DNA of 64,000 bases, from NCBI GenBank assembly GCA_031291275.1, contig JARLJJ010000674.1, positions 1 through 64,000 of the forward strand, given 5' to 3'. Shown here piece by piece: positions 62,893 to 64,000 of the stretch (positions are counted from its first letter, which is position 1; each line of letters opens with the position of its first letter). Source of the DNA: Formivibrio sp. Its GTDB lineage: Bacteria > Pseudomonadota > Gammaproteobacteria > Burkholderiales > Chitinibacteraceae. The notes beneath the pieces are model-generated. The model was not told where the DNA came from and made no database searches. It saw only the letters and a program-made list of their open reading frames with translations. Made by a program: the position numbers and the translations under genes.

Positions 62893-64000
62893 ATGAAGAT
62901 ACTTTTTCGGTTGATTTGTATCGCCGCAAGTTCTCTTGTTGTGAACAATGCGAGCGCATCCGACGGTGTTAACGGAGCAGATGAGTCCCCGCCCCTAACC
63001 GCTCCACCCATAATTATAAACCTGAACGAATTAGGAATTCGTCCTATCGTTATTGATCAATGTAAGCCGTACCTGATCATTGGAACGGAAGGCACGTTTT
63101 ACAACAAAAGCATTTCTGTCGAAACTACCTGCAAGGTCATTCTCACGCTGGAAAATGTTTGGCTTAAGCCTGAGGGGCAAGCACCTCTTGACGTTGGCAT
63201 GAATGTAAAGCTACTGCTCATCGGCCACAATGTATTGACCGGTAGCGACAATAATCCAGGAATTAAGGTTAATCAGGACGCTTTCTTATATATCAACCAA
63301 GCAGAAGATAATACTGATTCCATTACAGTAACTGGCGGCAAGAATGCGGCAGGCATCGGCGGTTCAAATGGAAAATCGAGTGGTACTGTCACCATAGGGG
63401 GTGGCAATATCACGGCGCAAGGCGGAGAAGCCGCAGCAGGGATTGGTGGTGGAAACGGCGGATCAAACGGGAGCATCAATATCGATGGGGGCACAGTCAG
63501 CGCGACAGGGGGCACTTGGGGCGCAGGTATCGGCGGTGGCCGTAGGGTTAAGGACGGCGGTGGAAACGGAGGAAACCTGATTATCAATGGTGGCGTTATC
63601 ACCGCAAAGGGTGGCCAATATGCTTCCGGTATTGGTGCAGGAGAAGGGGGGACGTGCGGAAAAATTGAAATCATTGATGGAACCATCACAGCAGAGGGTA
63701 ACTTCAACGCGGCCGGTATTGGTAACAGTACTAACACCAAAAATCCGATTGGTAACTGTCTTATCACCATCCAGGGCGGGAATGTCACTGCATTGGCTGG
63801 CAAAAATGGTGGGGCAGGTATAGGTGCCGGGAAAAATGGCGCTTTAGTGACCATCAATGGTGGAACAGTGAATGCAATTGGTGCCTATGGGGCGGGCATT
63901 GGTGGTGGTGCGGACGAAAATGGCGGCACTGTCACTATCAACGGAGGCCATGTCATAGCACATGGTGGCGAGGGAGGAGGCCCTGTCTATCACGGATCGG
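62893..64000 (+). CDS. Secreted Gly-rich tandem-repeat protein (putative beta-solenoid), 3' end beyond window; not in ORF track
   Basis: Hand translation MKILFRLICIAASSLVVNNASASDGVNG... stays open to 64000; seven repeats of GIGGGxxGxxGxITIxGGxITAxGGxxAA type; RBS-like GAGGA upstream. Confidence 0.85.
   Translation, partial: MKILFRLICIAASSLVVNNASASDGVNGADESPPLTAPPIIINLNELGIRPIVIDQCKPYLIIGTEGTFYNKSISVETTCKVILTLENVWLKPEGQAPLDVGMNVKLLLIGHNVLTGSDNNPGIKVNQDAFLYINQAEDNTDSITVTGGKNAAGIGGSNGKSSGTVTIGGGNITAQGGEAAAGIGGGNGGSNGSINIDGGTVSATGGTWGAGIGGGRRVKDGGGNGGNLIINGGVITAKGGQYASGIGAGEGGTCGKIEIIDGTITAEGNFNAAGIGNSTNTKNPIGNCLITIQGGNVTALAGKNGGAGIGAGKNGALVTINGGTVNAIGAYGAGIGGGADENGGTVTINGGHVIAHGGEGGGPVYHGS
63340..63970 (+). 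repeat. Protein-coding tandem repeats (26-34 aa period)
   Basis: GIGGSNGKSSGTVTIGGGNITAQGGEAAA / GIGGGNGGSNGSINIDGGTVSATGGTWGA / GIGGG...ITAKGGQYAS / GIGAG...ITAEGNFNAA / GIGNS...VTALAGKNGGA / GIGAG...VNAIGAYGA / GIGGGADENGGTVTINGGHVIAHGG. Confidence 0.85.

Follow-up and report, generated by a model that had tools for sequence, protein, structure and literature searches.

A glycine-rich PF18889 repeat protein from a Formivibrio genome, predicted to be Sec-exported and to fold as a capped beta-helix

The gene and its surroundings

The window analysed here is a stretch of 64,000 nucleotides (contig C456, positions 1-64000; the full contig has 67784 bases). At its right edge, an open reading frame starts at ATG 62893 on the forward strand, with an RBS-like GAGG motif about 10 bases upstream. 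As originally predicted, the frame is open to the end of the window. The part inside the window (62893-64000) continues on the contig as far as the stop codon at 64662, and the whole gene (L002:2893-4662) encodes 589 residues. The gene is real and complete; it would be absent from an ORF track of the window because its reading frame runs off the window edge. The mature product is predicted to be a soluble, Sec-exported protein of ~54 kDa with a pI of 5.4.

A predicted Sec signal peptide occupies residues 1-22 (MKILFRLICIAASSLVVNNASA; 62893-62958, forward strand). The n-, h- and c-regions are recognisable by inspection, as is an AxA site preceding S23, from which the cleavage site was assigned. 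A hydrophobicity scan identifies this region as the most hydrophobic stretch of the whole protein, and the pattern as a whole is consistent with the signal peptide proposed earlier. By inspection, C9 is not within a lipobox. Beyond residue 30, the best mean hydrophobicity over 19 residues is 1.04. The N-terminal cap follows (residues 23-152; 62959-63348, forward strand), with predicted strands starting at residue 40. It contains C57 and C80, the two cysteines expected in this region; the full set of seven lies at residues 9, 57, 80, 255, 289, 484 and 515.

The remainder of the protein consists of eleven coils and a C-terminal cap. Coils 1-7 (63349-64000, forward strand) comprise about 26-37 residues each and follow the pattern GIGGGxxGxxGxVTIxGGxVTAxGG, as delimited with PF18889 and AlphaFold. 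They are the seven degenerate Gly-rich repeats of the original prediction, with GIG-type starts at residues 154, 183, 212, 246, 275, 309 and 335. Coils 8-11, placed by coil positions and PF18889, start at residues 371, 408, 437 and 470; together with the C-terminal cap they lie outside the window on the same strand (contig positions 64003-64659). The cap (residues ~500-589, up to contig position 64659) adds about 90 residues after the last coil and ends in LYFYLPSNAPVTP.

The Pfam model PF18889 (Beta_helix_3) matches the window part with an E-value of 3.4e-22 and the full protein with 104.5 bits (E 2.1e-30, 8-9 stretches), above the gathering cut-off of 27 bits; the repeat array is therefore not due to chance. 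DNA similarity between the copies is only 63-83%, yet the protein pattern is preserved, which indicates an old, diverged coding array, and a simple DNA repeat was rejected on the same grounds. The protein is a further member of an already catalogued repeat family that is rare in its order.

Upstream, the aldo-keto reductase gene has a match of 86% identity in a same-genus genome. This speaks for a native contig and against contamination as an explanation. Among the best first-look candidates scored, the rest of the 7.8-kb stretch to the contig end has no same-genus DNA match except for a segment of the sigma-54 activator. Downstream (L002:5458-7640), a 211-residue protein without a known family is followed directly by an NtrC-type sigma-54 response regulator, and no secretion or glycan gene is evident next to the 62893 gene. 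The GC3 of the gene is 0.46, compared to 0.55-0.73 for its left neighbours. Since the right neighbours are likewise low (0.45 and 0.52), composition alone is no proof of gene transfer.

A repeated element ahead of the gene was rejected, as the 483 upstream bases are present once in the genome. The contig end (L002:7640-7776; C456 67640-67776) matches the end of contig C349 at 99% identity; the assembly thus breaks here at a repeat, perhaps a mobile element. The assembly has 5.55 Mb in 677 contigs with an estimated contamination of 5.01%, whereas two same-genus genomes have 3.1 and 3.8 Mb.

Predicted fold and structural neighbours

The single-sequence AlphaFold2 model places one strand set in each coil (pLDDT 55, pTM 0.66). 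With nine alignment rows the pTM is 0.79, 199 residues have a pLDDT of at least 90 and the strands repeat once per coil. Confidence exceeds 90 over most of residues 100-270, is low past residue ~470, and falls below 50 at residues 1-34 and in most of the C-terminal cap. Stacking of the coils as a beta-solenoid or beta-helix, the type of fold first suggested from the repeat spacing, is thus well supported by prediction. Knotted solenoids (PMC13123833) were set aside as a comparison; these are reported from Brevundimonas and have the pentapeptide-repeat family as their closest kin.

The best Foldseek match in the PDB is Cthe_2159 (4phb; probability 0.94, TM 0.52 over the target, E 0.3). The link is weak because no structure reaches an E-value of 0.001, and we treat kinship with Cthe_2159 as a suggestive lead. 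The model shares the beta-helix with this protein, whereas the sequences have no family in common: the PF14262 profile, to which Cthe_2159 belongs, gives no match to the 589-residue protein up to an E-value of 5. We therefore do not class the protein as a PF14262 member, the resemblance being structural only.

The Cthe_2159 family binds celluloses and polygalacturonic acid, and Cthe_2159 has been described as polysaccharide lyase-like, resembling PL9 (PMC6712302). This description raises the idea that the protein is a secreted polysaccharide lyase-like enzyme instead of a binder. However, no lyase family matches in Pfam or NCBIfam, and the near-uniform coils lack long loops of the kind expected around an active site, making such an activity very improbable.

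Relatives, protein ends and anchors

In the source genome, the 62893 ORF is the single gene of the PF18889 family. A search of other genomes with the Pfam model, covering 369 at class level, 399 at phylum level and 43 at family level, yielded no match, and tblastn with the protein matched none of 60 relatives; both searches are low in sensitivity, as the best single repeat of the gene itself scores only E 3e-5. A nine-row profile matched 3 of 398 genomes of the order: the source genome, G1312 and G1414, the latter two from another family. Outside the order, relatives were found in a Prevotellaceae MAG (L009), in whose phylum 2 of 297 genomes match the Pfam model, and in L024, L026 and L029. 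The repeat thus appears to be rare in this bacterial group. Such repeats had been considered better known from Gram-positive gut bacteria than from betaproteobacteria. The direction of this claim roughly holds, given the Prevotellaceae, SLH/choline-binding and other multidomain relatives and the rarity in the order, but two further genomes of this order do carry the repeats. Phylogeny gave no supported placement of the protein (long branch, support 55/0) and consequently does not discriminate between a donor lineage and vertical descent.

G1312 and G1414 encode several large proteins of this type (L065:4406-11257, L066:1-3759, L067:7889-10618 and L068:1200-3290, with L066 incomplete at a contig end). 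PF18889 scores above its cut-off in L065 and L066 but falls short of it, narrowly or clearly, in L067 and L068. They have the repeats and the long N-cap type in common with the 62893 protein (profile E 4e-28) but are 696-2283 residues long, and some of them also contain Ig-like and choice-of-anchor D regions. IPTL-CTERM-like tails end L065, L067 and L068, of which only L068 passes the NCBIfam cut-off. L024, a Gram-positive-type relative, carries SLH and choline-binding repeats, and L026 has InlB-type repeats and, by inspection, a lipoprotein-like start. L029, a viral-collection contig with an isolate-style record, shares the long N-cap, the GIGGG coils and the C-terminal GKLYFYLP end; it differs in having two solenoid units in a single frame, one of them partly inverted, and an extra C-terminal region.

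Both ends of the protein have counterparts among these relatives. The N-cap resembles the cap ahead of the same repeats in L029 and other relatives, with an hhalign score reached by 0 of 100 shuffles. The C-terminal end scores above all 100 shuffles against the two L029 ends; the alignment over the full length of this end is weak, and its local match covers 11 residues around LYFYLP.

The recovered C-terminus of the 589-residue protein contains no membrane-spanning segment, and no autotransporter, PEP-CTERM, IPTL-CTERM, SLH or T1SS domain or other anchor is visible. Neither Pfam nor NCBIfam matches an IPTL- or PEP-CTERM sorting motif (membrane segment plus basic tail), and Pfam detects no C-terminal beta-barrel (type Va) or TPS secretion domain before the ORF ends at residue 589. 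Recovery of the C-terminus from the contig thus did not bring the autotransporter, PEP-CTERM, T1SS or carbohydrate-binding Pfam domain that had been considered there. Of the original prediction of a surface or secreted protein, secretion fits the signal-peptide pattern, while nothing in the recovered C-terminus would fix the protein to a surface. It had also counted an early stop with no export domain against itself: export and anchor domains of the types listed are indeed missing, but a predicted signal peptide is present.

The PF18889 relatives are mostly larger and multidomain, and several of them carry an anchor or end in a sorting tail, whereas the 62893 protein has a cap-solenoid-cap layout alone, which is not seen among the relatives found. 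The anchors appear to differ by lineage, a pattern drawn from a handful of proteins and not from a survey. The IPTL-CTERM-like tails of the same-order proteins raise the question of whether the gene is what remains, after decay or truncation, of a longer surface protein that lost its anchor, and it does lie in a region not common to relatives, near the contig-end repeat. We consider this improbable: the ORF is intact, its own C-terminal cap resembles the ends of L029 with LYFYLP, and none of the three forward frames over ~530 bases beyond the stop contains an anchor-like tail.

Possible role of the exported protein

A survey of fibrillar adhesin-like proteins handled Beta_helix_3 as a stalk domain and found it without a co-occurring known adhesive domain (PMC8286594). 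In the 589-residue protein, Pfam matches no adhesive, catalytic or carbohydrate-binding domain and NCBIfam no family; of the fibrillar adhesin layout (stalk, adhesive domain and anchor), the two databases recover the stalk-type repeat alone. The protein could be a passive structural rod, acting as a spacer or as a biofilm or envelope scaffold without a specific ligand and retained either in the periplasm or in the matrix outside the cell. The stalk classification and the absence of a binding or catalytic domain fit this role. However, stalks are usually tethered and bear cargo, while neither tip nor anchor is found here, and the sole near structural match, Cthe_2159, binds sugar. We regard a passive rod as rather unlikely.

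Our preferred reading, which we put forward tentatively, is a beta-helix rod, exported but unanchored, that binds glycans or is adhesive. The protein would cross the inner membrane via Sec, as predicted from the putative signal peptide, and the exported chain would fold into a stiff rod composed of the N-cap, eleven Gly-rich coils and the short C-terminal cap. The rod may then be released or held loosely at the cell surface, where its regular strand faces could bind polysaccharide of a host, of plants or of the cell's own matrix. Outer-membrane passage and glycan binding are suggested by the fold neighbour and by the adhesin-like setting of the relatives (PMC8286594, PMC6712302). The intact ORF, the signal-peptide pattern and the lack of any other strongly hydrophobic segment speak for a sugar-binding or adhesive rod, as do the PF18889 score, the modelled strands, the Cthe_2159 match, the stalk role of Beta_helix_3 in the adhesin-like survey and the multidomain relatives with SLH/choline-binding, InlB-type and IPTL-CTERM-like parts. 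The weakness of the Cthe_2159 match, the negative PF14262 search, the low model confidence past residue ~470, the survey's failure to see Beta_helix_3 beside a known adhesive domain, and the apparent lack of an adhesive or catalytic domain, an anchor, or an adjoining secretion or glycan gene speak against it.

More speculatively, and in our view doubtful, a glycan-binding beta-helix module may move between phyla, with each lineage adding its own anchor (SLH/choline-binding repeats, IPTL-CTERM or others), and have been retained here on its own, as a secreted protein for attachment of a Gram-negative cell. The patchy distribution of PF18889 would bear on the spread of surface modules across phyla. 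The repeats are catalogued, yet tied to no function in the literature searched, and the stand-alone 54-kDa form without other domains would be convenient for fold determination and ligand-binding assays.

Plasmid and phage collections gave no match by tblastn, where the low-complexity filter may mask Gly-rich queries, and scans of viral contigs with protein and alignment queries confirmed nothing. Foldseek against viral proteins was likewise unconvincing, and the in-window part has two weak PHROG matches (E 0.055 and 0.51). Degenerate repeat patterns did find relatives in the viral collection; two further patterns led mostly to unrelated contigs. In L029, a GIGGG-repeat stretch of ~600 bp (L029:2850-3470) is inverted relative to the rest of its own reading frame, which stays open throughout. 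An invertible DNA segment or an assembly error could account for this.
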